NCBI GenBank assembly: GCA_019307945.1 | Contig: JAFDIS010000023.1 | Location: 1-39,924 of the forward strand | DNA from: Deltaproteobacteria bacterium | GTDB taxonomy: Bacteria; Desulfobacterota; DSM-4660; Desulfatiglandales; Desulfatiglandaceae | Direction: 5' to 3' | DNA: 39,924 nt | In this document: positions 18,852-33,435 of the stretch, one piece after another | How the letters are laid out: each line of letters starts with the position of its first letter | Numbering within the stretch: the stretch's first letter is position 1 | Translations under genes and position numbers: made by a program | Notes under the pieces: model-generated | What the model was told of the DNA's origin: nothing | Database searches by the model: none | What the model saw: the letters and a program-made list of their open reading frames with translations, nothing else

Positions 18852-19229
18852 ATGTTTTCCAAGATTCAAAGAAAGGATGAAAGAGGTTTTACATTGATCG
18901 AGTTGATGATCGTTATCGCGATCATCGGTATCCTTGCGGCCATCGCCATCCCGCAGTTTTCCGCCTACAGGCAGCGCTCGTACAACTCCGCGGCCCAGGC
19001 GGACCTCCGGAACGCAGCCACGGCCCAGGAGGCCTATTACGTGGATTTCCAGAGCTATGCGGACAACATCACGGATATCACAGGGTCCAGTTACGGGTTT
19101 TACACTTCCGAGAATGTGGTGATCAGCATCAGCAGCGCAAGCCAGACCCGTTACACGATCACTTCTTACCATCCATCCGGCAGCAAGACCTTTACGTTGA
19201 CGGGACCGGGAGGTACGATCCAGGACTAA
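18852..19229 (+). CDS. pilA: Type IV pilin (PilA-like), Geobacter-type N-terminus
   Basis: This is a major-pilin-like subunit of type IV pili. The 125-residue precursor has a 12-residue leader ending in Gly, then F+1[14 protein letters not shown] with E5, the prepilin peptidase signature. The first 60 mature residues resemble Geobacter PilA ([22 protein letters not shown]), with aromatic residues at mature positions 1, 24, 27, 32, 51 and 57. About 53 further residues follow, rich in Ser and Thr (20 in the last 54) and without cysteines, so there is no disulfide loop. A GGAGGGAAGAG site precedes the ATG. It is monocistronic between an upstream control region and a terminator. Confidence 0.92.
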
Positions 19230-19261: not shown

Positions 19262-19299
19262 AAAGGGGGCAGGACGTTAGAGACCTGCTCCCTTTTTTT
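19262..19299 (+). terminator. Intrinsic terminator after the pilin gene
   Basis: AAAGGGGGCAGG (19262-19273) pairs with CCTGCTCCCTTT (19284-19295), with one G-T wobble in the stem and a 10-nt loop, followed by a T-tract to 19299. It lies 32 nt after the pilin stop. It covers the last codons of the opposite-strand gene ending at 19277; on that strand the following T run is shorter, so it may terminate both genes but is better placed for the pilin. Confidence 0.85.
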
Positions 19300-21406
19300 C
19301 CGCATATCGAGCGGCTTCCAGGAAGCGCTCTCCACGGTGGCGACAGGCCCGCGCGAGCCGTTTCAGGGTGAGCGCGCGGTGGGGGAAGAGGACCTGGGGG
19401 GTTTGGGGATTCCCTAGGCCGTCCATGAAATGTCGGAGCCCCTCGGGGCTTCCTTGTAGTAAGGCCCGGTCCAGGATTCCCCGGGCCTTTCTTGTGAGCC
19501 CGGCCGCCTCGTAGGTCTCGGCCAGGAAGAGCACGTCCTGAAATCGGGGCTTCCTTCCTGAAAGCGCCTTTTTCGCGTACATCAAGGCCCGGCCGTGGCG
19601 CCCCCGGAGGCGATAGGCGAGACTCGTTCTCAACAAGATGGCGCGGTTTCGAGGATTGGCCTTGAGCGCTCGTTGAAGCAGGACCAGGGCCTCCTTCACA
19701 TCTCCCCGTTCCAGCAAGAGGCCGCCAAGATTGGTCAGTGCAGGGCGGTAGCGCGGCTTGCGGCGCAGGGCCCGTCTCAGGAGCGTCTCAGCCTGGGCCC
19801 GTTTCCCCTGGACGAAAAAGAGTGCTCCGAGATTGTTGAGAAGCTTTGGGTCGCCGTCGTATATCTCAAGGGCCTTTCTGAAATAGCCAAGGGCTTCCGT
19901 CTCATGCCCGAGCCGAAAGTGTTCGACCCCCAGATTGTAATAAGTCTTGTAGAAGAAGTTTTCCTTCTTGTCGTTTGCGGTCCTTTTCCCCAGGGCCTTC
20001 TCGTATTGCCTGATGGCCTCCAGGGGTCTGTTGGTGTCCGAGTAATATTTCCCCAGGTTGACGTATGGTCGCCAGAGCTGCGGATATTTTTCGATGCAGT
20101 CCACCCAGAGGCTTTCCTCGGTCTTCCAGGAGAAGTTCCGAAGGAAAGTGGCGTGGCCTTGGCCCACGAGGAACAGGACCATGGCAGCGGCGATCAGGGT
20201 GCGGACCGTTCTGCTGAGGGGGGAGTGAAAAAGGAGGTGTGCCAGGCCCAGGGCGGGAGGGAGGAAAAGGAGCATGGAGGGGAGGTAATTTCGGTGTTCA
20301 AAGACCATTTCAAGGGGTAGAAAAGAGCTTTCCACGGCATGATTGATGAAAAAGAAGAGGATGCAGAAGGAGATGAGAGGTCTTTTCCGGGAAAAGATCA
20401 GGGCCCCCAGTACGGCCGCCGCCACGATCGCCATGGCAGGAAGAGTGGATAGAGGATCCAGGAGGCCTCGAGAGACGGTAAAATCATGGTTGACGCAAAG
20501 CCTTCCAGGGTCCGGGTACAGGAGCAGCCCCAGGTAGAAAAGAAGGACTCTGGGCTGGGTCATGAGCCTTTCCAGGGGGCCGTAGGCCCTCTTGTCGAAG
20601 CCGGCCAGAAACGCCGTGAGCCCTCCCTTTTGCAGGGCCAGGAGGTATCCTATGAAAAGGGCCGCGAAAAGCACGCACATGAGGAGGCAGAGCCTACGGT
20701 TGCGCCTGACCCATGCCCCTGGTGATTCCCCCTGGATCAGGATTACGTCGTAGAGAAAGGCTATGACGGGAATCAGGATCGTGTTTTCCTTGCTGGCAAG
20801 GGCCAGCAGGAAACATGCGAGCGATAATCCATAAGAAACAGCCCCTCCGTCCCGGGAAAGTCTCGCCCGGGCGTAGAAATAGAGTGACGCCAGGGAAAAA
20901 AGGGCGGCCATGACGGCCATTCGCTGTACGATGTAAGTGACCGCCTGGGTCTGGACCGGGTTGATCGCCCACAGGGCTGTGGCCAGCAGGGAGATGCCGT
21001 AGGCGTGCTCACGGATTTTTTCCCGGATGGTGGGAAGATGCAATGTACGGTGGATGAAAAGGAAGAGAAGAACCGCGGCCATCGCGTGCAGGATGGTATT
21101 GACGAGATGGTATCCAAATACGTCAAGCCCGCCTACATAGTAATTCAATGCGAAGCTCAGATTGGCAGCCGGTCGAAAAAGCTTTCCATTTGGCAGGAAA
21201 AATGATTTCTTTAGGTTCGTCCAGTTGAATTCGGTAAGATGAACGGATGCGTTATCCGTGATATTGATCACATCGTCGAAGTGCCAGGATGCGTCAAAGG
21301 TGTTGGCATAGACCATGAAAACCAACACACAAAGGGCCAAGGACGCGAAAACGTTTTTCCTGGCGGGTGACAAGGCGGTTTCAGGCTGAAATATCCGCGA
21401 ACTCAT
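19277..21406 (-). CDS. TMTC-like (DUF1736-type) membrane protein with TPR tail
   Basis: This 709-residue polytopic protein resembles the TMTC group, GT-C-fold proteins that in animals transfer O-mannose from a lipid carrier. One membrane span near residues 20-36 leads into an external loop with the acidic pair D44-D45 (WHFDDVINI). Conserved pieces include FGYHLVNTILHAMAA, ALWAINPVQTQAVTYIVQRM and FEHRNYLPSM. About ten further hydrophobic spans follow to near residue 425, then TPR repeats to about 660 (PYVNLGKYY, YNLGVEHFRLG, LNNLGALFFVQGK). GGGAGG precedes the ATG. Its start codon is 30 bp from the divergent gene. Donor and target are unknown. Confidence 0.8.
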   Translation of the reverse strand: MSSRIFQPETALSPARKNVFASLALCVLVFMVYANTFDASWHFDDVINITDNASVHLTEFNWTNLKKSFFLPNGKLFRPAANLSFALNYYVGGLDVFGYHLVNTILHAMAAVLLFLFIHRTLHLPTIREKIREHAYGISLLATALWAINPVQTQAVTYIVQRMAVMAALFSLASLYFYARARLSRDGGAVSYGLSLACFLLALASKENTILIPVIAFLYDVILIQGESPGAWVRRNRRLCLLMCVLFAALFIGYLLALQKGGLTAFLAGFDKRAYGPLERLMTQPRVLLFYLGLLLYPDPGRLCVNHDFTVSRGLLDPLSTLPAMAIVAAAVLGALIFSRKRPLISFCILFFFINHAVESSFLPLEMVFEHRNYLPSMLLFLPPALGLAHLLFHSPLSRTVRTLIAAAMVLFLVGQGHATFLRNFSWKTEESLWVDCIEKYPQLWRPYVNLGKYYSDTNRPLEAIRQYEKALGKRTANDKKENFFYKTYYNLGVEHFRLGHETEALGYFRKALEIYDGDPKLLNNLGALFFVQGKRAQAETLLRRALRRKPRYRPALTNLGGLLLERGDVKEALVLLQRALKANPRNRAILLRTSLAYRLRGRHGRALMYAKKALSGRKPRFQDVLFLAETYEAAGLTRKARGILDRALLQGSPEGLRHFMDGLGNPQTPQVLFPHRALTLKRLARACRHRGERFLEAARYAEKKGAGL

Positions 21407-21436
21407 TTGACCTCCCGGGCGCCTGGAGCACGATTC

Positions 21437-23320
21437 ATGCGCGGCCTACCGGCAAAATATCGTCTTTTCTGGTTGTCCACACTGCTGATCGGCCTTGTGA
21501 CGACGGCGTACCTTCCCACCTTTCACGGGGGGTTCATCCTGGACGACCGGCCCCTTATCGAGCGGAACGAATACCTTCGCAAACCCCACTCCCTAACCTC
21601 CTATCTCGGCCAGGAAGACGGTGTGATAGACAAAGAGGGTGGTGCGGTCCATCACACCGGATATTACAGGCCCCTGGTGACCTTGACCTACCGATTGGAC
21701 TATCTGTTGTGGGGAATGAATGCGCAAGGCTTCCGCACCACCAACCTGGTCTTGCACGTGGCCACCTGCCTGCTCCTTTTCGGGCTCTTGGTGTATCTTA
21801 CGGGGAGCCCGGTCCCTGCCTTCTGGGTGGTTCTCCTGTTTTCTCTTCACCCGGTCAACACCGAGGCGGTGTCCTGGATCGCTTCCAGAAACAACATCCT
21901 CGCGACCCTGTTCATGATCCTTTCCCTGTGGTGTTACATGTTGAGCTGGGCTCGCCGGCGGTTCCTGTTTGTCATCGTTTCCCTGGGGGCTTTTGCCTGC
22001 GCCCTTTTTTCAAAGGAATTTGGAGTGATGACCCTTCCGATTTTTTTCCTATACCACAGATTCCTCACACAAGAAAAAAGAAACCGCGTCAAAGAGTGCC
22101 TTTCATACCTGCCTTTTGTTTTGATCCTCCTGATCTATTTTTTTCTCAGGAAGAGCGTGATCGGCGCCTTTGTGTCACCCTTCGGGGCCCAGGACCTGGC
22201 AGTGCGAATCTTCTTCGTTCCCTACCTGGTTTTCTTGAACCTGAAACTGGTATTTCTTCCCCACGGCCTGCATTATCTCTATGTACAATATCCGGAAAGC
22301 CCAAGCTACCCTCCGGCCCTGATCTGCATACTGCTGTTCATTTCGGCAGGGGCCTTCCTGTGGCGGATTAGAGCCAGGGGACCTGTTGTCTTCTCAGCGA
22401 TCGCCTTTTTCCTCTGTCTTCTTCCGGTACTGAACATCGTCCCTTCGGCGTCCACGACCGTGACTCTCCTGGCCCTGCGCTGGCTTTATCTCCCCATGGC
22501 TTTTCTCTGCCCCGGGGCGGCATTTCTTCTCAAGCGGGGGCTCCAAGCAACAAGGGGACACATGATTTTCGCCCTCGTCACGGTGGCGTCAGTTTATTTA
22601 GGCGTCTACACTTTTGTCCTGAACCAGGGCCTGTGGCGCGAAGATCATACCTTTTTCGAGCAGGAAGTGAAGCAGTTTGGAAACTTCTTCCTGGCAGGCG
22701 ATCTGGCCGAAACCTATTTCCGTCGTGGAGACTACCGGCAGGCGGAGAGATATTTCAGAATCGCCGTGGACAAATACCCGCGTCGACTGGATACGCTGAT
22801 CAATTATTCGGCCTTCCTGGTGGAGACACGGAGACCGGCGCAGGCCCTTGCACTTCTCAGGAGAGCGGCGCCCTTGCTCAAAACCAGGCAGGAACGCGGA
22901 AGATGGCACGGCAACAAGGGGATCGCTCTTCAGCGCATGGGAAGGCGCAAGGAGGCCCTGGTGCACTTTCGCAAGGCCGTGCTTTACCTCCCGCGGCAAG
23001 CCAAGTCCTGGTCCAATCTGGGCGGGGCATTGGGCGAATTGCGCCTGTACAAAGAGTCGGAAAAGGTGCTGATGCGCGGCCTGCTCCTGGATCCTGATTC
23101 CATTGATCTCCGCATGAACCTTGCCCGGACCTACATCGGTATGAATGAATCAGATCGTGCCCTCGCCATCCTGAAAGGGATTCCTCACAATGTCCTGAAA
23201 AAGGCACCCGCCCTCATGAAGTGGAAGGTCCGGGCCGAAAGAAAGAAAAAGAGTCTTCCGGGGTTCTCTCCGGGAGATTCCCGAGCCGCGGAAAGAGGAC
23301 AAAAGGGGAACCGGAAATGA
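21437..23320 (+). CDS. TMTC-like GT-C membrane protein with TPR tail
   Basis: A second TMTC-like protein, 627 residues. The first span leads to the D36-D37 pair (GGFILDDRP), followed by [38 protein letters not shown] and RWLYLPMAF, the family's conserved loops. Several hydrophobic spans reach about residue 405, then TPRs ([46 protein letters not shown]). A start at TTG 21407 is possible, but ATG 21437 has GGAG eight bases away. Its stop overlaps the next gene's start (ATGA), tying it to a polyprenol-phosphate-sugar-synthase-like GT2. Enzyme activity is inferred. Confidence 0.8.
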
Positions 23321-24099
23321 TCAACCAAAAGAAGGTCCTGGTCGTTCTTCCGGCCTACAACGCTGAAAAGACCCTGGAGCGGACCTATCGGGAGATTCCC
23401 AGGGACATCGTGGACCAGGTCTTGCTGGTGGACGACGACAGCTCGGACCGGACCGTGGAAACGGCCAGGCGACTGGGAATCGAGAGTTTCCTGCATGACC
23501 GCAACTACGGCTATGGCCGCAATCAGAAGACCTGTTACAGGGAGGCCCTGAAACGCGGGGCGGACATCATCGTTATGCTTCATCCCGATTATCAGTACAC
23601 GCCGAAATTGTTGACGGCCATGGCCAGCATGATTGCATTCGGCGTCTACGACGTGGTTCTGGGATCCAGAATTATCGGAGGGGGCGCTCTTGAGGGAGGA
23701 ATGCCCTTTTACAAATACGTGGCCAACCGGTTTCTCACGGCCCTCGGCAACCTGCTGCTTGGAAGCAAGCTCTCCGAGTTTCACACCGGGTACAGGGCCT
23801 TTTCGAGGGAAGTCCTGGAAAGTCTGCCGCTACACCGCAACTCCGACGATTTCGTCTTTGACAACGAGATGCTGGCCCAGGTCATTCACTTCGGCTTCCG
23901 CGTGGGCGAGGTATCCTGCCCCACCCGCTACTTCGAAGAGGCATCGTCCATCGGCCTGTGGCCCAGCCTCGTCTACGGCCTGGGCGTTCTCCTGACCAGC
24001 GCCAAGTTCCGGCTGCACCGGATGGGGATCGTCCGTTTCGGTCTGTTCGAGCCACTGCGGGGGACCCCTGAAGAAGACTACTACGAAAGGATTACGTGA
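23317..24099 (+). CDS. GT2 glycosyltransferase, DPM/DPG-synthase-like
   Basis: This cytosolic GT-A enzyme of 260 residues belongs to the group that moves a sugar from a nucleotide to a polyprenyl phosphate (dolichol-phosphate mannose or glucose synthases). Visible motifs are [23 protein letters not shown], and [10 protein letters not shown] where the metal-binding DXD usually lies, a variant known in part of this family. [20 protein letters not shown] and the [10 protein letters not shown] segment follow. It has no clear C-terminal membrane spans. The ATG overlaps the stop of the TMTC-like gene (ATGA), so it may make its lipid-linked donor. Sugar and lipid are unknown. Confidence 0.85.
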
Positions 24100-24109
24100 G
24101 TCGTTGCAT

Positions 24110-24124
24110 CCACCGGTCCGGTGG
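24110..24124. other. Short hairpin between convergent genes
   Basis: CCACCGG (24110-24116) and CCGGTGG (24118-24124) form an inverted repeat in the 27-bp space between two convergent GT2 genes. There is no T-tract on either side. It could act as a weak two-way barrier to transcription or RNA decay; the sequence does not decide this. Confidence 0.35.
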
Positions 24125-24126
24125 TG

Positions 24127-24933
24127 TCATCTCCGCCGGTTCAGCCTTCGAGCCTGATGATCTGTCACCGGCGGTCGGGGGATGCCGTTTCTGATGAGAA
24201 AGCCCTTGAACCAAACCTTGATCAGTGTGGCCAGGTAGCGGAGAGTCATGGTCCCCAGTCTCAACTTGGAACCTCCCCGTGTACGCCCGTTCCAGTGGAT
24301 CGGCATGGAGGCAATCCTGTACTTCCGGACCAGAGCCGAAAGGGACATCTCGATGGTGATGTTGAAATGGCAGGCTTCGAGGGGCATCATGGAACGTATC
24401 ACAGGGCTTCGGTAGGCCTTGAAAGCATTGGTCAGGTCATTGTGCCGGGTCAGGAAGAGGACCTGGAGGAGACGGTTGACCAGGCGGTTGATGATGCGCT
24501 TGTGCATGGGGTAACCGATCACCACGGCCCCCCGGATGAATCTAGACCCGAACACGCAGTCGTAACCTTCCTGGATTTTCCGGTAATATCGTATCACGTC
24601 CCGGGGATCCTCGGACCGGTCCGCCATGACGGGTATAATCACGTCCCCCGTACAATGCGCCAGACCGCTGCGCATGGCCCTGCCGAAGCCCCGCGGGGGT
24701 CGTCGATTGATCAGGCGTACCTCCGGGGCCTCCCGCTGCATCGCTTCCACAAGGGCCTTTGTATTGTCACGGCACGCATCGTTGACCACGATTACCTCAA
24801 AGGGAATCCCTTCCTTCTTCAGCGAGGTCAGGATGCCCTCAAGGGTGGATACGATCAGTCTTTCCTCGTCGTGGGCCGGGACAACGATGGAAAGCTTAAG
24901 TGGTTTTCCATCGGGGGATCGGGTGGTGCTCAT
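24127..24933 (-). CDS. GT2 glycosyltransferase, DPM-synthase-like
   Basis: A second polyprenol-phosphate-sugar-synthase-like GT2, 268 residues. It has SIVVPAHDEERLI, EVIVVNDACRDNT, the GRAMRSGLAHCTGD helix, VFGSRFIRG, NRLVNRLLQ, the NDLTNAFKAYRS segment and the late RGGSKLRLGTM motif typical of DPM-like enzymes. Where most have MDXDXQ/SXXP, this one reads MADRSEDP, an uncommon metal site. There are no strong C-terminal spans. Its ATG overlaps the stop of the 576-residue membrane gene by 4 nt, so both are made from one message, and the pair mirrors the coupled pair on the other strand. Confidence 0.85.
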   Translation of the reverse strand: MSTTRSPDGKPLKLSIVVPAHDEERLIVSTLEGILTSLKKEGIPFEVIVVNDACRDNTKALVEAMQREAPEVRLINRRPPRGFGRAMRSGLAHCTGDVIIPVMADRSEDPRDVIRYYRKIQEGYDCVFGSRFIRGAVVIGYPMHKRIINRLVNRLLQVLFLTRHNDLTNAFKAYRSPVIRSMMPLEACHFNITIEMSLSALVRKYRIASMPIHWNGRTRGGSKLRLGTMTLRYLATLIKVWFKGFLIRNGIPRPPVTDHQARRLNRRR

Positions 24934-26660
24934 TCCTTCAGACCTCCGGCCCGTGCGGGTATGAGCACAAGGCCCCGGACGTGGCAGGACGGGTCATTTT
25001 TCATCACCTCAAAGCGGTGCCTTCCCCGCGCCACCGTCAGGCGGCCGATCGGGAGAAGAGAGCTTCGGGGCGATCCTGCTCGCCTTCGGCCCGTGCATCG
25101 TCCCGTCCCCAACAATTCTCCGTCCATGAGCAGGCGGATGATTGCGGGGCAGGTACAAGTTCCCACGTCGAGGAAGACCTCGTAACCGCCGTCCTGCTCA
25201 AGGATGAGATCAAAGGGAGGCTCCTTCGGCACCAGGGATTCGCGTGAAGGCCGGAACAGGCCTTCCTTGACGAGACGGGGAGGCCATTGTGCATAGAGGC
25301 CCCGTGGTTTCTTGATATCCTTGTGGAAGGGGCCCAGGCCCTGCTGCCGGAGCCTTAATATCGCCCGGCCCAGGATCTTGAGGTCCGGATAAATCCTTCC
25401 GAAACGATCCCCCCCGCCGTAGACGCGATCATACCGGAGAAGATCCAGGGTGTCCCTCAGATTTGCGTTGTGGGCCGTAAAAGCCGATAGCCCCTGTGCA
25501 TAGGCCAGGGCATGAAGGACGATCAATCCTGTGAACAGGAGAGAGATCACCCATTTTCTCAACGGGCCGGCCTGTCCGGTAAAGACCCCGTAAGGATGAT
25601 CATTCAAAAAAAGGACCGCCGCAAGTCCCACCCAGAAGAAGGTGCTGAAGGCCGTGTAGCGGCTTGCCAGGGCATGTGAGGGTCCGAAACCCATGCGGCC
25701 CAGGGCGGTGGCCAGCGCGCTTAAGACCACGAAGGCGATTGAAGCGAACCACGGTCTCGCCGGATCGGGAATTCGATGTCCCTCCCGGAGCACCCTGAAA
25801 AGAGCCGCAAATGAGGCGAGGAGTCCCAGGAGACCCAGCAGTGCAGCCGCTCCGGTTCCCAGCGGTTTGCCTAAGGGGGCGCCCAGATAGGCCAGGAAAA
25901 ACATACAGAAGGATGCCGGATCTTCAAGGAACAGGGTGAGGTTAGGATGGTGGACCGGGTGCCGGTAGCCTGAAAAATAGGCCCCTGCGGATCCCAGGGA
26001 GAGGATAAGCCAAAAGATCGCCCTGGCCGTTCGCGCCGGGCCCTTCGGGCCTCTAAGGATCCAGGGGAAGAGGACCCACCAGAGAATAAGGCCGTTGGCA
26101 AACGAAAAGGTGCCCAGGAGGCAGGCGGACGCGGCGAGCAAGAGGCGCCTGAGCCGCTGTGGTCCGCCTGCTGAGGCCCAAAAGGCCATGGCCGCGGCCA
26201 GGAGGTTGAGATAGACCTGGAGTTGCCAGCCCCAGGCCCAGTTCTCATGCTGGACCATGGAAAAAAGGAGGATGGATGCCAGGACGATGAAGAGTTGCAA
26301 GGGCCTTCTCCGCCCGGGAGTAAACGTGCGTCCGGCCGTCGCCGCGACAAAGACGAAGGTAATTCCCTGCAGACACACCGAGGCGTATTGTTCCCATACC
26401 ACGTTCCAGCGGCTGGGAAGGGCGAGGGCCAGCATGATGAGCCTGGGAAAGAAGAGACGATGTTCGTTGTGCTGGTGCCACAGGGAGCCAAGATTGAGAC
26501 ATCCTTCCCGCAGGGGAAGGAGGATTTGCAGGAAAAAGCCGTCCCACTGGTCCATGTATGGCAGGTTCACCGCCTGGCGCCATATGAAATACAGGAGCAA
26601 AAGCGGCGGGAGTCCCGCCGCCGGAACAATCATCGGAACTGCGCAATTGCGGTTCTTCAC
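24930..26660 (-). CDS. Polytopic membrane protein, GT-C-like, unnamed family
   Basis: I do not recognise a named family. The 576-residue protein has one N-terminal span, then an external loop with an acidic MDQWDGFF motif and HNEHRLFF, a layout like the first loop of GT-C glycosyltransferases. About ten more spans reach residue 390 (SMVQHENWAWGWQLQVY is a notable loop). A soluble region of about 180 residues follows, ending in a beta-rich part with a C-T-C motif. GTG start follows AGGGGG, and a good promoter lies upstream. It is coupled by ATGA to a DPM-like GT2, which supports a glycosyl-transfer role by context only. Confidence 0.65.
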   Translation of the reverse strand: MKNRNCAVPMIVPAAGLPPLLLLYFIWRQAVNLPYMDQWDGFFLQILLPLREGCLNLGSLWHQHNEHRLFFPRLIMLALALPSRWNVVWEQYASVCLQGITFVFVAATAGRTFTPGRRRPLQLFIVLASILLFSMVQHENWAWGWQLQVYLNLLAAAMAFWASAGGPQRLRRLLLAASACLLGTFSFANGLILWWVLFPWILRGPKGPARTARAIFWLILSLGSAGAYFSGYRHPVHHPNLTLFLEDPASFCMFFLAYLGAPLGKPLGTGAAALLGLLGLLASFAALFRVLREGHRIPDPARPWFASIAFVVLSALATALGRMGFGPSHALASRYTAFSTFFWVGLAAVLFLNDHPYGVFTGQAGPLRKWVISLLFTGLIVLHALAYAQGLSAFTAHNANLRDTLDLLRYDRVYGGGDRFGRIYPDLKILGRAILRLRQQGLGPFHKDIKKPRGLYAQWPPRLVKEGLFRPSRESLVPKEPPFDLILEQDGGYEVFLDVGTCTCPAIIRLLMDGELLGTGRCTGRRRAGSPRSSLLPIGRLTVARGRHRFEVMKNDPSCHVRGLVLIPARAGGLKE

Positions 26661-26752
26661 GTATCCCCCTGCAACCGCTACAGACCACTGAATTCGAAAT
26701 GGAGACGGCCTGGCCCGTTTCGCGTTCTTCTGTTCCGGGGCGATCGGCCGTC

Positions 26753-26781
26753 AGGATAGGAGAGGCCGGCTCTTTTGTCAA
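26753..26781 (-). promoter_or_regulatory. Sigma70-type promoter for the 576-residue membrane protein
   Basis: On the minus strand, TTGACA (26781-26776) is a perfect -35 element, followed by a 17-bp spacer and TATCCT (26758-26753) as -10. Transcription would begin near 26746, about 85 nt before the GTG at 26660. It is the best-formed sigma70 promoter I can see in the accessory half of the window. Confidence 0.65.
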
Positions 26782-26810
26782 TCAGACCTATTCGGCGTGA
26801 TTAGGGGTAT

Positions 26811-26839
26811 TTGCAATCCACGGGCCACTTTGTTATGTT
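26811..26839 (+). promoter_or_regulatory. Possible sigma70 promoter for the DUF2723-like gene
   Basis: TTGCAA (26811-26816), a 17-bp spacer and TATGTT (26834-26839) make a moderate promoter pointing right, with a leader of roughly 120 nt to ATG 26970. With the minus-strand promoter it forms a back-to-back pair in the 309-bp gap 26661-26969. The rest of that gap holds the inverted repeat described next and no gene I can support. Confidence 0.45.
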
Positions 26840-26878
26840 TTGCCCGCGGGTTCATCCGGGTAAGTAGGAATAGTAGTG

Positions 26879-26914
26879 GGGGGACCGAAGGAGTCTATCT
26901 GGCTTTTGTCCCCC
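26879..26914 (+). other. Inverted repeat in the leader of the DUF2723-like gene
   Basis: GGGGGAC (26879-26885) and GTCCCCC (26908-26914) are perfect complements with a 22-nt loop that contains GAAGGAGTC. The hairpin would lie in the 5' leader, about 55 nt before the start codon. There is no T-tract. A structural or regulatory role is possible but not shown. Confidence 0.35.
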
Positions 26915-26969
26915 AGGGTTCACGCGCGGCGCTGGTACGTAGGATTGGACAAGGGGAAAGATTAGGATC

Positions 26970-28832
26970 ATGAGCGTGCGCAAAGGATTAGACCCGGGCT
27001 GGGGGGTGGCCTTCCTCACCGGCGTTGCGGCCTTCGGGGTTTACGGACTGTGCCTTGCTCCCTCGCTCCCGGCGGCTGACGCCGGGGAACAGATCACCGC
27101 CGCACATTTCCTCGGGATCAGCCACCCCACCGGCACGCCCCTCTATCTCCTCCTCATGAAAGCCTGGGAGGTCTGCCTTCCCATGGGCTCCGTTGCCTGG
27201 CGCATGAATCTGCTGAACGCCGTGCTGGGTTCGGTGGCCGTGGGCCTTTTTGCCTTCTTTTTCCGCCGACTGTGCGCGGCCACAGCCCTTCGGCGGGGAG
27301 AAATCGTCATCCTCTCCTCAGGCATAGCCCTCACACTGGCCTTTTCGCGCACATTCTGGTACGAGAGCGCCGGTGCCTCCTCCTATGTCCTTCACTACCT
27401 TTTCTTGATTATATGGCTGGGTATTGCCCAGGACCTGATGCGGAAAGAGCGACCGGAGCGCACCCTTTGCCTCCTCTATGCCGTATCTGGCCTCGCTCTT
27501 GGAAACCATGTCTTGGCCTTGGCGCCCCTGGGCGTGACGGGAATCCTGGCGGTCTCTTTATTGGTGAGACGCAGGATCGGTCCCAAGGCTTTCTTTTCAA
27601 CACCTCTCATGTTGATCCCGGGTCTACTTTTTTATCTCTATATCCCCATCCGCTCGGCCTCGGATCCCATTCCTGACTGGGGAAACCCCCAGACCCCCCC
27701 GGCATTGTGGCATTACTTGACGCGTCAGGACTACATCGCGAATACTTACGTGTCCACCATCCACGATTTACTGGCCGCAGCCTGGTTCCATGCCAAGTCC
27801 TTCCTTGTAGAAATGACGATCATCTGGCCCCTGTTGGTGATCCTCTTCCTGTTCCTGGGTATGTATTCTTGGATACGGAAAAAGGAGGGAGCGCGGGGAA
27901 ATGGGACTTTTCAAGGGGTCGCCGTGGGGGGATGCCTCCTGGCCCTTCTCAGTTTCGTTCTTGTGGCGGCTCATGGTTCTCATAACGATCTTTTTGATCT
28001 TCCAAGATACATGGTTCCCGTCTACCTGGGTCTTTTCTCTGCCACGGCCCTCGGGGTTTTGTGGGGCATGGGATGCATGGGAAGAGGGGCCCGTGTTTTA
28101 CTGCTCGCCCTGATCTGGGTGGCCCCTGCCTCGGGTCTTATCCGCCACTGGGAGGTAAACGACCGTTCCCGGAATCGCATCGTGGAGACCTTCGCCCGGG
28201 AGGTCCTGGCGCACGTGCCCAGGGGAGCATCTCTTTATGCAGAGGGAGACAATTACCTCTTTCCTCTCCTGTACTATCATTACGTGGAGGGGGTGCGTCC
28301 CGATATCAGCCTGCTCAACCCGCGGCTCGGTCTGGGGAGCCGCGACGACATCGCCCGCCTGCTTCGTAAGGAGCGCCTGTGGGTAACCCATCCCCTCCGC
28401 ATCGGATCACCGTACCGCTCGGTACCGCAGGGCCTGGTGTTTCGCGTGACCCGGGCCCGCGAAGTTCCGAAACGATCCCTGCCGTGGAAAGGTTTCCGGG
28501 CCATTCAGTTCTCCCTGGCCCGCGCACCCCTTGAGCGGATCATGCTCTGCGATTATTGCTATCGGCGTTCCGTGTATCACCGGCTACGGGGGGAAGAAGG
28601 GCTGCGGCGCGAATGGGTGGAGAAGATGACCAGGGCCGCCGGAGACTACGATCAGGCCTTGATGCTCACCGGGAGGGCGTTTTTCGAAATGGGACGAACC
28701 GGGGAGGCCGAAATTTATTTCAGGAGGGCATTGAAAAAGAATCCTAAGAACCGTGTGGCGTTGCACTATCTGGGAAGGCTCGCGGAGGAGCGGAAGGAGA
28801 AGGCCCGGTTATCGGAGAGGGGCGATTCATGA
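26970..28832 (+). CDS. DUF2723/TMEM260-like membrane protein with TPR tail
   Basis: This 620-residue protein belongs to the DUF2723 group, whose human member TMEM260 is an O-mannosyltransferase. The signature first loop is present: PAADAGEQITAAHFLGISHPTGTPLY, split here as D37-E40 (DAGE) and the HPTGTPLY turn. About ten spans reach residue 390 (notably ALGNHVLALAPLG and YLYIPIRSASDP). A soluble domain follows, with a TPR-like pair at the end (RAFFEMGRTGEAEIYFRRALKKNPKN). TPRs at the end make it resemble the TMTC proteins. The last codon and stop overlap the opposite gene's stop. Activity is inferred from the family. Confidence 0.8.
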   Translation: MSVRKGLDPGWGVAFLTGVAAFGVYGLCLAPSLPAADAGEQITAAHFLGISHPTGTPLYLLLMKAWEVCLPMGSVAWRMNLLNAVLGSVAVGLFAFFFRRLCAATALRRGEIVILSSGIALTLAFSRTFWYESAGASSYVLHYLFLIIWLGIAQDLMRKERPERTLCLLYAVSGLALGNHVLALAPLGVTGILAVSLLVRRRIGPKAFFSTPLMLIPGLLFYLYIPIRSASDPIPDWGNPQTPPALWHYLTRQDYIANTYVSTIHDLLAAAWFHAKSFLVEMTIIWPLLVILFLFLGMYSWIRKKEGARGNGTFQGVAVGGCLLALLSFVLVAAHGSHNDLFDLPRYMVPVYLGLFSATALGVLWGMGCMGRGARVLLLALIWVAPASGLIRHWEVNDRSRNRIVETFAREVLAHVPRGASLYAEGDNYLFPLLYYHYVEGVRPDISLLNPRLGLGSRDDIARLLRKERLWVTHPLRIGSPYRSVPQGLVFRVTRAREVPKRSLPWKGFRAIQFSLARAPLERIMLCDYCYRRSVYHRLRGEEGLRREWVEKMTRAAGDYDQALMLTGRAFFEMGRTGEAEIYFRRALKKNPKNRVALHYLGRLAEERKEKARLSERGDS

Positions 28833-30632
28833 GGAGGGAGCCTCGGGTCCGAGGATCTGTTCTTCCAGTTTCAGGGCCAAATCAGGAGCTTGGCTACGAA
28901 GCGTGTCCACGGCCTTGCGGGCGCAGCCCGAATCTCCCGTCTTGAGGCACATGAGTCCCAGGTAATAACGAAAGATGGGCCTTTGAGGGGCCAGCCGGAC
29001 CGCCTCCCTGAACTGCGTTGCGGCTTCGGCGTATCTTTCGAACCGGCCCAGCAGGAGGCCGTAATTATACCTGGCGGTGACGAACCGCGGGTCCAGTCGT
29101 ACCGCCTCGGCGTGTTCCCGGAGCGCTTCACGAAGCTGCCCCACCCTCGAGAGGACCACGCCCAGGTTGGTACGAGCCCGTACGTTTGCGGGACGAAGCA
29201 CCAAGGCCTTCTTGAGACAAGAAACGGCGTCCCCGTATCTTCCTTGGCCCGCCAGGACACGCCCCAGGTTGTTCAGGGCCATATCATTCCGCGGATTGAT
29301 GCGAAGGGCCTCGCGGTAGTGCTCCATCGCACGCCCCGTGTCACCCAGCCTTTCCAGGGCAACGCCCAGGTTGTAGTGTGCCACCCCGTTCTGCTCGGTC
29401 ATCTCCAGTGCATGTCTGTAAAGGGTGACGCTGTCACGCCAGTAGGAGACCTGAACCGAGGCCGTCACGGCCAGGGCCACCACAGCGGCTCCCAGAACAG
29501 CCTTGGGTATGACCCGGCCGCGGAGAGCGAGACCGGTGAGATCGTAAAGCCCCCATACCCCTATTATGAAGATTCCTATCAGCGGGATGTAGGTATAACG
29601 GTCCGCCATGGCCTGCGAGCCCACCTGAATCAGGCCGATCACGGGGACCAGGGTTCCCAGGAACCAGAGCCAGCCCACCGGAAGGTATCCCCGGTTTTTT
29701 CGTAGAGCCGCAACGCCGAGGGATATCATCGCCAGGAAGAGGGCCGCCGTGGTTACATCAGTCCAGGGGATCCGCCGGGGGTGGGGATAGAAGACGGCCA
29801 GCCCTGAAGGCCACAGGGTTTTTGCGACATACGTGGCGTAGGATAGGACGGCGTTTTGAATACGGGCCGTTAAAGGGAGGGTGTCAAAGGGGATGATGGC
29901 CCCCCAGGAGCGCTGCGCCCAGATAGTCACAACGCTGGATGCGGCTGAGAGGGCCAGTAACGGAATTTTTTCCAGGATGAGGCGGAAGATTGGCCCTGAG
30001 CCGGCATGGGAACCATTCAAACGTCGTAGGGGCCAGTAATCCAAAAGCATGAAAACGAAGGGCAGCGTCACCACCATGGGTTTGGAGAGGAGGCCCATTA
30101 TGAAAAGGACCATGACAAGCAGGTATGCGGGCCCCCCGGGCCTTTCAGCGTAGCGCGCATATGCCAGGGTGGCGGCCATCCAAAAAAAGGTGCTCAGGAC
30201 GTCCTTTCTCTCGGCAGCCCATGCCACCGATTCCACGTGCAGTGGGTGAACGGCGAAAAAGGCCGCTACGAAGCCCGCCCGCCACAATGTCCCGGTCATC
30301 CGATGGAGGGCCAGGAAGAGAAGCAGGGTGTTGGCCATGTGAAGGATCAGGCTCGAGAGGTGATGGGCTCCCGGCTGAAAGCGGAAGAGTTCCACGTCCA
30401 GCATATGGGAAATCCATGTGAGGGGGTGCCAGTTCAGGGCATGATGCGTGGTGAAGGCCCAGCGGACTCCATCCCAGGTAAGCCCTTCGGCGATATGCCG
30501 GTTTTCGGTGATGAGGAGTGGGTCGTCGTAATTGATGAACTCGTGATGCCCCACCTGCCGAAACACGATCAGCGTCAGGGCGAGCAACAGGAGGGAGGCG
30601 ATAAGCTTTTGGCTTGCCGGAGTCACGTTCAT
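28827..30632 (-). CDS. TMTC-like GT-C membrane protein with TPR tail
   Basis: The third TMTC-like protein, 601 residues. After the first span comes D36-D37 (FINYDDPLL), then NWHPLTWISHMLDVELF, HHLSSLILHMANTLLLFLAL, AVHPLHVESVAWAAERKDVL and a MADRYTYIPLIG loop, the best family match of the three. It has about ten spans up to residue 390, then at least five TPRs (AHYNLGVALERLGDTGRA, ALNNLGRVLAGQGRYGDA, TNLGVVLSRVG). AGGAGG lies upstream, with a rather long 12-nt spacing. Its stop abuts the convergent DUF2723 gene. Function as glycosyltransferase is inferred. Confidence 0.82.
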   Translation of the reverse strand: MNVTPASQKLIASLLLLALTLIVFRQVGHHEFINYDDPLLITENRHIAEGLTWDGVRWAFTTHHALNWHPLTWISHMLDVELFRFQPGAHHLSSLILHMANTLLLFLALHRMTGTLWRAGFVAAFFAVHPLHVESVAWAAERKDVLSTFFWMAATLAYARYAERPGGPAYLLVMVLFIMGLLSKPMVVTLPFVFMLLDYWPLRRLNGSHAGSGPIFRLILEKIPLLALSAASSVVTIWAQRSWGAIIPFDTLPLTARIQNAVLSYATYVAKTLWPSGLAVFYPHPRRIPWTDVTTAALFLAMISLGVAALRKNRGYLPVGWLWFLGTLVPVIGLIQVGSQAMADRYTYIPLIGIFIIGVWGLYDLTGLALRGRVIPKAVLGAAVVALAVTASVQVSYWRDSVTLYRHALEMTEQNGVAHYNLGVALERLGDTGRAMEHYREALRINPRNDMALNNLGRVLAGQGRYGDAVSCLKKALVLRPANVRARTNLGVVLSRVGQLREALREHAEAVRLDPRFVTARYNYGLLLGRFERYAEAATQFREAVRLAPQRPIFRYYLGLMCLKTGDSGCARKAVDTLRSQAPDLALKLEEQILGPEAPSS

Positions 30633-30838
30633 GGATGGGGGCTACCTCCTGGCGCGCCGCCCGATCCGAGGGAACTTGCATGATGGGCCTTCATGGGGTA
30701 AAAGGGGAAAACCATGTCCGTATGTAGCGGAAAAGGCAGGTTATTGGGGAGCGCCCCCCGGCGGGAACGGATAGAACCGTGACGGGGGTGCGGGAGAGCG
30801 AAGGCCCCGGCAGGGGCCGGCGTGTTCGTGAATTGACG

Positions 30839-32515
30839 ATGGAAGAAAAGGGTATTCCCTTCATTCGATTTGTTTCGGCGGCGGCACTGCTCCTCTTGGG
30901 GGCGTGCGTGGTACTCCTCTCCTGGGTCCCCCCAGTGAGCCGGGACGCCCTCGTTCATCACCTGGCACTCCCCAAACTGTTCCTCCGGCACGGGATCCTG
31001 GCGGACTTTCCCACAATGGTGTATTCCTATTACCCCATGAACCTGGATCTCCTTTACATGATTCCGCTCCGGTTCGGAAACGATATCGCCCCCAAACTGA
31101 TCCATTTCTCCTTCGGTCTGCTAACGGCGTGGGTGCTGTATGCCTATCTCAAGTCCAGGCTGGGGAGGACCTACGGCTTGATGGCGGCCCTGTTTTTTCT
31201 TTCCACGCCGGTCATCGTCAAACTCTCCACCACGGTCTATGTGGACTTGGGCGTTATCTTTTTCAGCACGGCGGCCCTCCTCCTGCTCCTGCAATGGGCG
31301 GAACGGAGGTTCAGGTCACGGTACCTGCTCCTGTCAGCGGTCTGCTGCGGTCTGGCGCTCGGCACCAAGTACAATGCCCTGATCTGCCTCCTTCTCTTGA
31401 CCTTTCTCGCTTCGGTCCTCCGGGTACGCGGTGCGCCGTCGGGCCGACGCGGCTTCTTGAGCGCCGCTGGGTCGGGTGTGCTCTATCTCACGGTGGCCCT
31501 GCTCCTGTTTTCACCGTGGATGATAAGGAACTACACCTTGAAAAGCAACCCCCTCCACCCGCTGTTCAAGGGATGGTTCACCGGCGCCGGGGCCGGTGTG
31601 GGCCGGGAGGGGGCGGGGCAAATCAGGGCGAGCGGGCCCCGTTACGGGTTCTTCACCTACCGGAAAGTGGTCTACGGGGAAAGCGGTTGGGACATAGCGC
31701 TTTTGCCTTTGCGGATTTTTTTCCAGGGTCGAGACGGGGATCCCCGGTATTTTGACGGCAGGCTGAATCCGTTTCTCCTGATCCTACCCGTATTTGCATT
31801 CCTCCGCAGAGGGGAAGAGCGAAAACCGATGGCAAAGGAGAAATGGGTTTTTCTCGCTTTTTCGGTCCTTTTCCTTTGTTTTGCGCTTTTTACGAGCGCT
31901 CTTCGAATTAGGTACATCTCCCCCATTATCCCGCCCCTGGTGATCTTATCCGTCCTGGGCGTGAGAAATCTGGCTGCATGGGGAAAGGAGAAGGGCGCAT
32001 CATGGGGCCGCGTGGGAGGCCCCGCGCTTGCGGTGGGGCTGTCGGCCGCCATGATTTTCCTCAATGCGGCGTATGTCCATGCCCAATTTCGTATCGTGGA
32101 GCCTTTCACTTATATACGGGGTTCCGTGAGCAGGGATCAATACATCGACAAGCGTCGGCCCGAATACGCGGCCATGCGGTATATGAGCAAGGCCCTGCCC
32201 CGGGATGCCAGGGTTCTTTTCCTCTTCGTCGGAAAACGGGGATACTATTGCGACAGAGACTACGTACTGTTTGAGGGCGCTTTCAAACGCGCCGTTACAA
32301 GGGGGGGGTCGCCCAGGGAGATCTGCCGGGGTCTGCAACTGGCAGGCGTATCCCACCTTCTCGTCTTCGAGCCCCTGCTCAATCGCTGGGTCCTTGATAA
32401 TTTCAGGGGGGATCGACTGAAAAGGATAAGAAAATTCTTTGAACGATATGTCCGGGGATTATATTGCAGAAACGGATTCTGCGTGGCGGCCCTGAATTGC
32501 CCCGCAGACGGATGA
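30839..32515 (+). CDS. ArnT/PMT-like GT39-type glycosyltransferase
   Basis: This 558-residue protein (from ATG 30839) resembles lipid-carrier-dependent GT39/PMT_2 enzymes, which move a sugar from polyprenyl phosphate to a target outside the membrane. The first span leads to the acidic loop SRDALVHHLALPKLFL, followed by YSYYPMNLDLLYMIPL, GLALGTKYNALICLLLL, SPWMIRNYTLKSNPLHPLF and about nine further spans. A soluble C-terminal part follows (GKRGYYCDRDYVLFE). The frame is open from GTG 30779; neither start has a strong ribosome site, so the first 20 codons are uncertain. It heads a nine-gene co-directional cluster. Confidence 0.78.
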   Translation: MEEKGIPFIRFVSAAALLLLGACVVLLSWVPPVSRDALVHHLALPKLFLRHGILADFPTMVYSYYPMNLDLLYMIPLRFGNDIAPKLIHFSFGLLTAWVLYAYLKSRLGRTYGLMAALFFLSTPVIVKLSTTVYVDLGVIFFSTAALLLLLQWAERRFRSRYLLLSAVCCGLALGTKYNALICLLLLTFLASVLRVRGAPSGRRGFLSAAGSGVLYLTVALLLFSPWMIRNYTLKSNPLHPLFKGWFTGAGAGVGREGAGQIRASGPRYGFFTYRKVVYGESGWDIALLPLRIFFQGRDGDPRYFDGRLNPFLLILPVFAFLRRGEERKPMAKEKWVFLAFSVLFLCFALFTSALRIRYISPIIPPLVILSVLGVRNLAAWGKEKGASWGRVGGPALAVGLSAAMIFLNAAYVHAQFRIVEPFTYIRGSVSRDQYIDKRRPEYAAMRYMSKALPRDARVLFLFVGKRGYYCDRDYVLFEGAFKRAVTRGGSPREICRGLQLAGVSHLLVFEPLLNRWVLDNFRGDRLKRIRKFFERYVRGLYCRNGFCVAALNCPADG

Positions 32516-32559
32516 GGGGATTTGTGTTCGGAATCCCCTTGGCGAGAGGAGTGGATGGA

Positions 32560-33435
32560 ATGGAACTCAGCGATGTTTCGGTCATCATCCCGGCCTATAA
32601 CGAGGCGGATTCCATCGGGAAACTGGTGGAAAGGATCAAAGGTCTTTACCCCGATGCGGAAGTCATTGTCGTGAACGACGGTTCGCGGGACGGGACCGCG
32701 GCGGTGGCGAGGGAGGCTGGCGCCATTGTATACAGCCATCCTTACAATATCGGAAATGGGGCGGCGGTCAAGAGTGGGATCCGAATAGCTTCCGGCAAGG
32801 TTTTGGTCTTCATGGACGGTGACGGACAGCATGATCCCGAGGACATCGAAAGGCTCCTGGCACATTTCCCAGACTTTGACATGGTGGTCGGGGCCCGCGG
32901 CAAAGGCCAGCAGGCCTCGAAGGTCAGGGCTTTCGGCAACCGAGTTTTCAACCGCCTGGCCGCTTATGTATCCAAGTTTCGCGTGGAGGATCTCACGTCG
33001 GGCTTTAGAGCCGTCAAGGCGGATATCGCTCGCAGCATCCTGTACCTTCTTCCAAACACCTACTCTTACCCCACGACCATGACTCTTTGCGTCCTGCGCA
33101 ACGGGCGGAGCGTCAGATACGTCCCCATCGAGACCCGGAGGAGGTCCCGGGGAAAAAGCAAGATCCGCCTCACACGTGACGGGGTGCGCTTTTTCATGAT
33201 CATCACCAGGATCTGCGCCCTCTACTCGCCCCTGAGGATTTTCCTCCCGGTCAGTTTTTTCTTTTTCGTGGTGGGCCTTGGATATTATCTTTATACATAC
33301 TTCATGTGGGGTCGATTTACCAATATGAGTGCGCTCCTGTTTTCCACTTCGGTGATGATTTTCATGATGGGGCTCATCTCGGAACAGGTGACGCAAATGC
33401 GGTTTGAAAGGAGCGAGGGGGATCGATACATCTGA
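32560..33435 (+). CDS. GT2 polyprenol-phosphate sugar synthase with C-terminal spans
   Basis: A third DPM-like GT2, 291 residues, with the most canonical motifs: VIIPAYNEADSIGKLVERI, VIVVNDGSRDGT, FMDGDGQHDPEDIERLL, VVGARG, VEDLTSGFRAVKADIAR and RSRGKSKIRLT. Unlike the other two it ends with two hydrophobic spans (VSFFFFVVGLGYYLY and SALLFSTSVMIFMMGL), the GtrB-like layout. The frame is open upstream, even to an ATGA overlap with the GT39 gene at 32512, but ATG 32560 has AGGAG eight bases away. It probably makes a lipid-linked sugar for the GT39 enzyme before it. Confidence 0.85.
   Translation: MELSDVSVIIPAYNEADSIGKLVERIKGLYPDAEVIVVNDGSRDGTAAVAREAGAIVYSHPYNIGNGAAVKSGIRIASGKVLVFMDGDGQHDPEDIERLLAHFPDFDMVVGARGKGQQASKVRAFGNRVFNRLAAYVSKFRVEDLTSGFRAVKADIARSILYLLPNTYSYPTTMTLCVLRNGRSVRYVPIETRRRSRGKSKIRLTRDGVRFFMIITRICALYSPLRIFLPVSFFFFVVGLGYYLYTYFMWGRFTNMSALLFSTSVMIFMMGLISEQVTQMRFERSEGDRYI

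Follow-up and report, generated by a model that had tools for sequence, protein, structure and literature searches.

In a 39,924 nt stretch of DNA from a Deltaproteobacteria bacterium of the Desulfatiglandaceae (assembly GCA_019307945.1, contig JAFDIS010000023.1, positions 1 to 39,924 of the forward strand), hereafter the window, we analysed a gene for a 576-residue integral membrane protein, which is very probably a transferase of lipid-linked sugars in the cytoplasmic membrane, built on the glycosyltransferase C (GT-C) fold and belonging to a family across which the makers of the sugar donor are exchangeable. The family is likely to be new, being unnamed and absent from Pfam and NCBIfam, and is set apart from the glycosyltransferase family GT136 by the published description of ORF12 only, the founding protein of GT136. 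With rather less confidence, we favour a wider reading of a bacterial and archaeal GT-C family whose core was independently joined to two donor pathways that are chemically unrelated, one in which a GT2 makes a polyprenyl-phosphate hexose and one in which DPPR synthase and DprE1/DprE2-like enzymes make a polyprenyl-phosphate pentofuranose, such that the gene cluster, and not the family, sets the donor. The fold, the conservation, the topology pattern and the gene pairing were computed, whilst every catalytic and substrate step is one that we infer.

The open reading frame (ORF), first proposed from the DNA sequence by an unaided reading (the original prediction), is real and runs on the minus strand from a GTG start codon at 26660 to a stop at 24930, with a purine-rich AGGGGGA directly upstream of the start. 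Its proposed lack of a named family was borne out, as no Pfam-A or NCBIfam family matched at E ≤ 1, including PMT_2, PMT, TMEM260-like and the remaining Pfam-A profiles, and phmmer returned no match among PDB sequences at E ≤ 10. The same holds for 76 aligned members of the family, which gave nothing convincing against Pfam (four single-member matches to domains of unknown function, E 0.003–0.01) or NCBIfam (one single-member match, E 0.007), whilst in PHROGs one unnamed family was matched by two of the 76. A literature search, of which CAZy was not part, showed no account of the family among the papers listed, and the matches listed for HNEHR, a motif of the first loop, were unrelated text.

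An AlphaFold model of the protein (mean predicted local distance difference test score, pLDDT, of 81.7, mostly >90 up to about residue 440) contains 12 long helices, with the first span ending at residue 29. When the model was compared using VIA-align, rows 1–49 were all GT-C-type chains with 266–379 residues aligned and Z scores of 18.3–11.3, most of them exceeding the level of about 13 under which Z can be common for helical bundles; the best row (Z 18.3) aligned at 4.9 Å over 335 residues, and a sharp drop followed to WaaL in row 50 (Z 6.5). The chains included oligosaccharyltransferase (yeast, human and archaeal), Pmt4, ArnT, ALG3, ALG12, AftB, EmbB, PglB, AftA, DPY19, PimE and PIG-U; the lists do not show every GT-C family, and a family missing there carries no meaning. 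The match covers residues 1–437. An independent model of a Nostoc homologue (L043, pLDDT 90.7) also retrieved GT-C chains in rows 1–44 (Z 17.5–9.4), and the structure comparison proposed as a check in the original prediction has thus returned a GT-C fold in two members. Beyond the core, residues 451–576 were modelled with pLDDT mostly <50, and the C-terminal domain of the Nostoc homologue is a beta-sandwich whose alignments with modules from glycoside hydrolases and proteins like them score Z 8.1–8.6, close to what VIA-align flags as common.

Searches with the 576-residue protein located relatives in five of 148 relatives' genomes (source genome included) and a single plasmid relative, whose gene is annotated as a hypothetical protein. 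Single-protein close-relative pattern scans of genome contigs and viral contigs found none, and a Nostoc member (L040) used as query recovered no relatives among plasmids or phages; an alignment-based scan succeeded, as an alignment of seven, run against a collection with one genome per species, gave 146 places, from which we retained 79 distinct loci. These loci belong to cyanobacteria, Planctomycetota, Bacteroidota, Verrucomicrobiota, Acidobacteriota, alpha-, beta- and delta-type proteobacteria and candidate phyla, and to two methanogen-related archaea. The family is uncommon, occurring in 11 of 395 genomes drawn at random from the phylum of the source (E ≤ 0.001) and in 11 of 369 drawn at random from the class of Vogesella (1e-6). 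The residue counts below refer to the alignment of 76 members, which omitted four of the ORFs of >100 bits in loci L030–L108, namely those of L060, L079 and L099 (short) and L078 (unknown residues); in L092, L101, L102 and L103 the ORF caller gave no single ORF >100 bits. Members consist of the core only (about 390–520 residues) or are longer, up to 876 residues. In a tree of the cores, the 576-residue protein is a lone long branch within a clade (99/98) also holding cyanobacterial members, its exact position inside that clade being unsure. Three adjacent copies of the family gene lie in one locus (L080:3491-10664) and two each in L226 and L227, and in a relative from the same taxonomic family as the source the gene (L012:9044-10756) adjoins genes that we take to be nitrogenase-like.

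Counts of lysine plus arginine over the homologues, using the long helices of the model, gave fractions of 0.17–0.20 in the loops after helices 2, 4, 6, 9 and 11, and of 0.00–0.07 in loops 1, 3/4, 5/6, 7/8 and 8/9, whilst loop 10/11, which carries the invariant R322 and R334, stood at 0.14. By these positive-inside counts helix 248–267 seems not to cross the membrane, which therefore leaves 11 spans and a C-terminus outside, in agreement with the eleven or so spans and soluble end first suggested for the protein, and the pattern accordingly places the strongly conserved polar loop residues on the outer side.

The conserved residues fall largely in these outer loops. D37 was present in all 75 rows with a residue at that position, W39 in 67 of 75, R322 and R334 in all 76 and Y335 in 75, and G190 was invariant or nearly so. 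The first-loop MDQWDG motif noticed in the original prediction thus holds for its first acid and for the tryptophan, but not for its second acid, as D40 was present in only 9 of 76 rows (65 gaps). The conservation of HNEHR in the alignment is inflated because the collecting scan used that motif. In 12 rows found by profile and not selected by motif (nine distinct proteins by eye, some seen from two loci), D37, G190, R322 and Y335 were each present in 12 of 12, R334 in 11 and H64 in nine, whilst the rest of HNEHR was variable. The GT-C features set out in the relevant passages of PMC6801728 comprise an acidic residue following span 1, polar ones in loop 2, an arginine or lysine in loop 3 (or asparagine or glutamine, as in STT3 and DPY19) and, among the last four spans, an arginine or lysine in the outer loop, after which the eukaryotic enzymes have a proline 4–14 residues on. 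In the family, the first outer loop has D37 as a single acid and not a DxD motif, loop 2 has Q137 (70/76) and N140 (69/76), position 189 in loop 3 is asparagine in 39 of 76 members, histidine in 14 and serine in 13, and R322 and R334 are the basic residues of the last four spans. The family thus shares the first, second and fourth of these features.

The gene overlaps by ATGA a gene for a GT2 protein resembling dolichol-phosphate mannose synthase (DPM) and ArnC, which matches PF00535 (E 2e-22) and in the PDB scores highest against dolichol-phosphate mannose synthase, at 72 bits, followed by ArnC at 68; its nearest paralogue in the source genome is only 30% identical (83.6 bits). Across 71 loci (omitting L034, L046, L060, L078 and L082, on the same contigs as L008–L012), GT2 proteins of at least 150 bits to that of the window accounted for 13 of the 127 genes one place away (counting the window's GT2 itself), 4 of the 121 two places away and 3 of the 489 three or more places away. 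Fisher tests including and omitting the window both gave p < 1e-6 (488 being entered for 489), values which are optimistic because related cyanobacterial loci were counted separately; none of L008–L012 has the GT2 pairing. Such GT2 neighbours were found in cyanobacteria, Bacteroidota, delta-type bacteria and methanogen-related archaea, and among the adjacent same-strand genes (n = 82) the most frequent assignments were Glycos_transf_2 (20), Methyltransf_23 (9), Epimerase (7) and GtrA (6). The cyanobacterial GT2 proteins carried an N-terminal GtrA domain in 7 of 7 tested and the archaeal ones an LPG_synthase_TM domain in 2 of 2, which therefore joins a donor maker and a possible flippase beside the transferase. 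The archaeal fusions (L067:5446-7236 and L083:6203-7936) are a second kind of donor-maker/putative-flippase fusion.

Other members adjoin genes of the DPPR-synthase/DprE1 type (HAD-UbiA, DprE1-like and SDR), as in L007, L107, L104, L108 and L071, whilst L053 has only part of the set. The FAD enzyme of L007 matches DprE1 (E 1.9e-67) and the UbiA protein of that locus, which carries a HAD domain, matches decaprenyl-phosphate phosphoribosyltransferase (7.1e-21). Across 369 genomes, 85 had UbiA matches, present in 7 of 11 genomes with the family vs. 78 of 358 without (p 0.004), and 4 of 13 family copies lay within 6 kb of a UbiA match (p about 2e-7 in a rough model of 3-Mb genomes and random placement). 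In a sample of 40 UbiA-anchored regions from the 85 genomes, four contained the family, namely the known Vogesella locus (L168) and three further ones (L174, L175 and L191). A DPPR-type cluster was present in 4 of 26 loci from three collections not chosen by motif, L220 being counted though no family ORF was called there. On the tree of cores, the GT2 and DPPR-type associations each need three changes. The informative neighbours of the homologues are thus makers of polyprenyl-phosphate sugars and not genes of unrelated function, and together with the fold they support the proposal of a new transferase family.

The use of a polyprenyl-linked sugar donor is suggested by this gene context. In the mechanism that we propose, the neighbouring GT2 would, by homology, load a single sugar onto polyprenyl phosphate at the cytoplasmic face, a flippase would turn the charged lipid over, and the GT-C protein would hold the lipid phosphate and sugar in a groove bounded by loop 1 and the upper membrane helices. 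R334-Y335 and R322 may provide contacts for the lipid phosphate and sugar, and D37 may act as the base which activates the acceptor hydroxyl; these roles are assigned by analogy with GT136 ORF12 and other GT-C enzymes, that of R334-Y335 following R349-Y350 of ORF12 as reported in the residue description of PMC11127046 and the GT-C features in PMC6801728. The sugar would then move to an acceptor outside the cytoplasm, for which a surface polysaccharide is more likely than a protein, with the beta-rich C-terminal region possibly aiding acceptor binding. For the window protein, the most probable donor is a polyprenyl-phosphate hexose produced by its GT2 partner, and across the family the donor maker would be swapped, a DPM-like GT2 serving in some lineages and a DPPR-synthase/DprE1/DprE2-like pentofuranose pathway in others. 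As the papers listed by the literature search show no description and the protein would work like a Gtr- or GT136-type transferase, we class the family as unnamed and new, though its kind is known.

Several observations weigh against this interpretation. Foldseek used alone gave a weaker signal, with a best GT-C E-value of 6.5e-3 and transporters mixed in (template modelling scores, TM, near 0.1), and its sole match <0.001 was the transporter URAT1 (TM 0.11). The family profile made no GT-C link among PDB sequences (best E 0.26, an amidase), and hhalign against three GT-C-type proteins of the window gave probabilities <1% and was uninformative. A proline after the loop arginine occurs in only 12 of 76 members. 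Many loci contain neither donor maker, including all five of the window's nearest relatives; the coupling to a DPM-like enzyme put forward in the original prediction therefore stands for the window, with its ATGA overlap, but is not universal, the GT2 pairing being found in none of those five loci (three of them at contig ends). In the 26 loci not chosen by motif, a GT2 (at least 60 bits) adjoins the family gene in only four, once on the opposite strand, and no GtrA domain was found in the whole source genome (E ≤ 0.001), though DPM-like GT2 proteins are present. Approached from the UbiA side, the family was in 0 of 12 DPPR-type plasmid clusters, sampled from 103 records with a match. Several of these clusters carry GT39, GT87 or other multispanning proteins, and the family is therefore one of several transferases used. 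Two plasmid clusters (L113:11935-16651 and L116:11943-15152) hold tandem arrays of two or three multispanning proteins that look alike, are unnamed and belong to another kind, and these are perhaps further unnamed transferases.

The lone family genes with no donor maker beside them would also suit a GT-C-fold protein that is not a transferase, such as a structural subunit, a lipid-carrier transporter or a regulator, and the fold alone allows for this, as PIG-U, a non-enzymatic subunit of the glycosylphosphatidylinositol transamidase, is among the VIA-align rows. We consider it improbable, however, as the loop-1 acid and the loop arginines, reported as essential in GT-C enzymes in PMC6801728 and PMC11127046, are invariant or close to it here. 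The protein could instead belong, as a divergent member, to a GT-C family already in CAZy, with GT136 as the foremost candidate. Its founder, ORF12 of Citrobacter youngae, has the same build as described in PMC11127046, with 11 spans, a loop-1 acid, an R-Y pair and a beta-rich C-terminal carbohydrate-binding module, and its kin sit with DPPR-synthase, DprE-like and flippase genes in clusters like those of some family members. According to the mutant results given there, the essential residues are D31, E34, H106 and R349, a Y350A mutant retains a trace of activity, and D37 and R334-Y335 are comparable, by that description, to D31 and R349-Y350. The spacing differs, however, with 75 residues from D31 to H106 in ORF12 vs. 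27 from D37 to H64, the D..EY pattern is absent (D37-Q-W), and E34-Y35 and the H106 spacing have no counterpart. The residue description of ORF12 names no HNEHR-like motif, and it places ORF12 closest in sequence to ArnT among solved structures, whereas the family profile finds no ArnT in PDB sequences. Among the multispanning proteins of the 40 UbiA-anchored regions, none was a D..EY candidate for ORF12. Membership of GT136 or another existing family seems rather unlikely, if less so than a non-transferase role.

A different acceptor is envisaged if the window member glycosylates a protein, for instance the nearby type IV pilin, within a protein-glycosylation island. A pilin-like gene lies in the window, and three TPR-tailed multispanning proteins, one TMEM260-like and one PMT_2-like protein are encoded within 14 kb; against this, the genes of such an island are on different strands, and the genes next to homologues encode mostly GT2s, methyltransferases and epimerases, as in polysaccharide loci. 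We regard protein glycosylation as a doubtful alternative to the transfer of a lipid-linked sugar to a surface polysaccharide, which remains our preferred reading.

Coordinates of the gene, its conserved codons and the associated features in the window
Feature	Position	Strand	Basis
576-residue integral membrane protein, unnamed GT-C-like family	24930..26660	(-)	ORF, GT-C fold, 146 places with relatives
DPM/ArnC-like GT2, proposed maker of the polyprenyl-phosphate-sugar donor	24127..24933	(-)	homology, gene pairing
D37 codon, first outer loop, proposed catalytic base	26550..26552	(-)	invariant acid
H64-N65-E66-H67-R68 codons, loop 1	26457..26471	(-)	near-invariant in the 76-member alignment, which was collected with this motif; variable in profile-found members
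R322 codon	25695..25697	(-)	invariant
R334-Y335 codons, conserved pair preceding the last two spans, putative contact for the phosphate/sugar of the donor	25656..25661	(-)	role inferred
C-terminal extracytoplasmic region, residues 451–576	24933..25310	(-)	family-variable, beta-rich, modelled poorly
Sigma70-like site TTGACA-17-TATCCT	26753..26781	(-)	consensus match only

The sigma70-like site scores 10 of 12 and ends 93 bases upstream of the start codon. It is the best of three sites in 3.3 kb, so its earlier description as the clearest sigma70 promoter nearby holds, but that it drives the gene is a matter of consensus match only, and the promoter is unproven because shuffled sequence gives 1.0 ± 1.0 sites against these three. 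Around the gene, positions 19277–33435 encode the TPR-tailed multispanning proteins (at 19277, 21407 and 28827), the TMEM260-like protein (26970), the PMT_2-like protein (30779) and GT2 proteins at 23221, 24127 and 32464, an unusually dense cluster of probable lipid-linked-sugar transferases. The type IV pilin-like protein (N_methyl, 18852–19229) adjoins this cluster and is a possible glycoprotein acceptor.

If the interpretation is correct, an uncharacterised family extending from candidate phyla to cyanobacteria and methanogen-related archaea could receive the annotation of lipid-linked-sugar transferase, and its proposed active site (D37, R322, R334 and Y335) would be open to testing. The GT-C group would gain a sequence family tied to both hexose and pentofuranose side-chain addition, which would cover the arabinofuranose-like clusters of Gram-negative bacteria with their resemblance to the DprE1 pathway of mycobacteria.

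Amongst known systems, the solved GT-C transferases (ArnT, PMT, STT3/PglB/AglB, ALG3/ALG12, AftB, EmbB and DPY19) share with the family the fold, the acid after span 1 and the loop arginine before the last two spans, but there is no sequence match, and the family has its own HNEHR and Q.EN..WG.Q loops and lacks a conserved proline after the loop arginine. The three-component Gtr glucosylation system (GtrA, GtrB and a serotype-specific Gtr) likewise pairs a DPM-like GT2 with a membrane transferase, and in cyanobacterial loci of the family a GtrA domain is fused to the GT2; it differs in that the source genome yielded no GtrA and in that the transferase here matches no named family. The three-component pentofuranose systems of GT136, as described for C. 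youngae ORF12 in the pertinent sections of PMC11127046, resemble the family in their GT-C build, 11 spans, loop-1 aspartate, R-Y pair and extra beta-rich C-terminal domain, and some homologues of our protein stand beside HAD-UbiA, DprE1-like and SDR genes; the spacing and surroundings of the conserved residues differ, and the window gene is paired with a GT2 and not with a UbiA protein.

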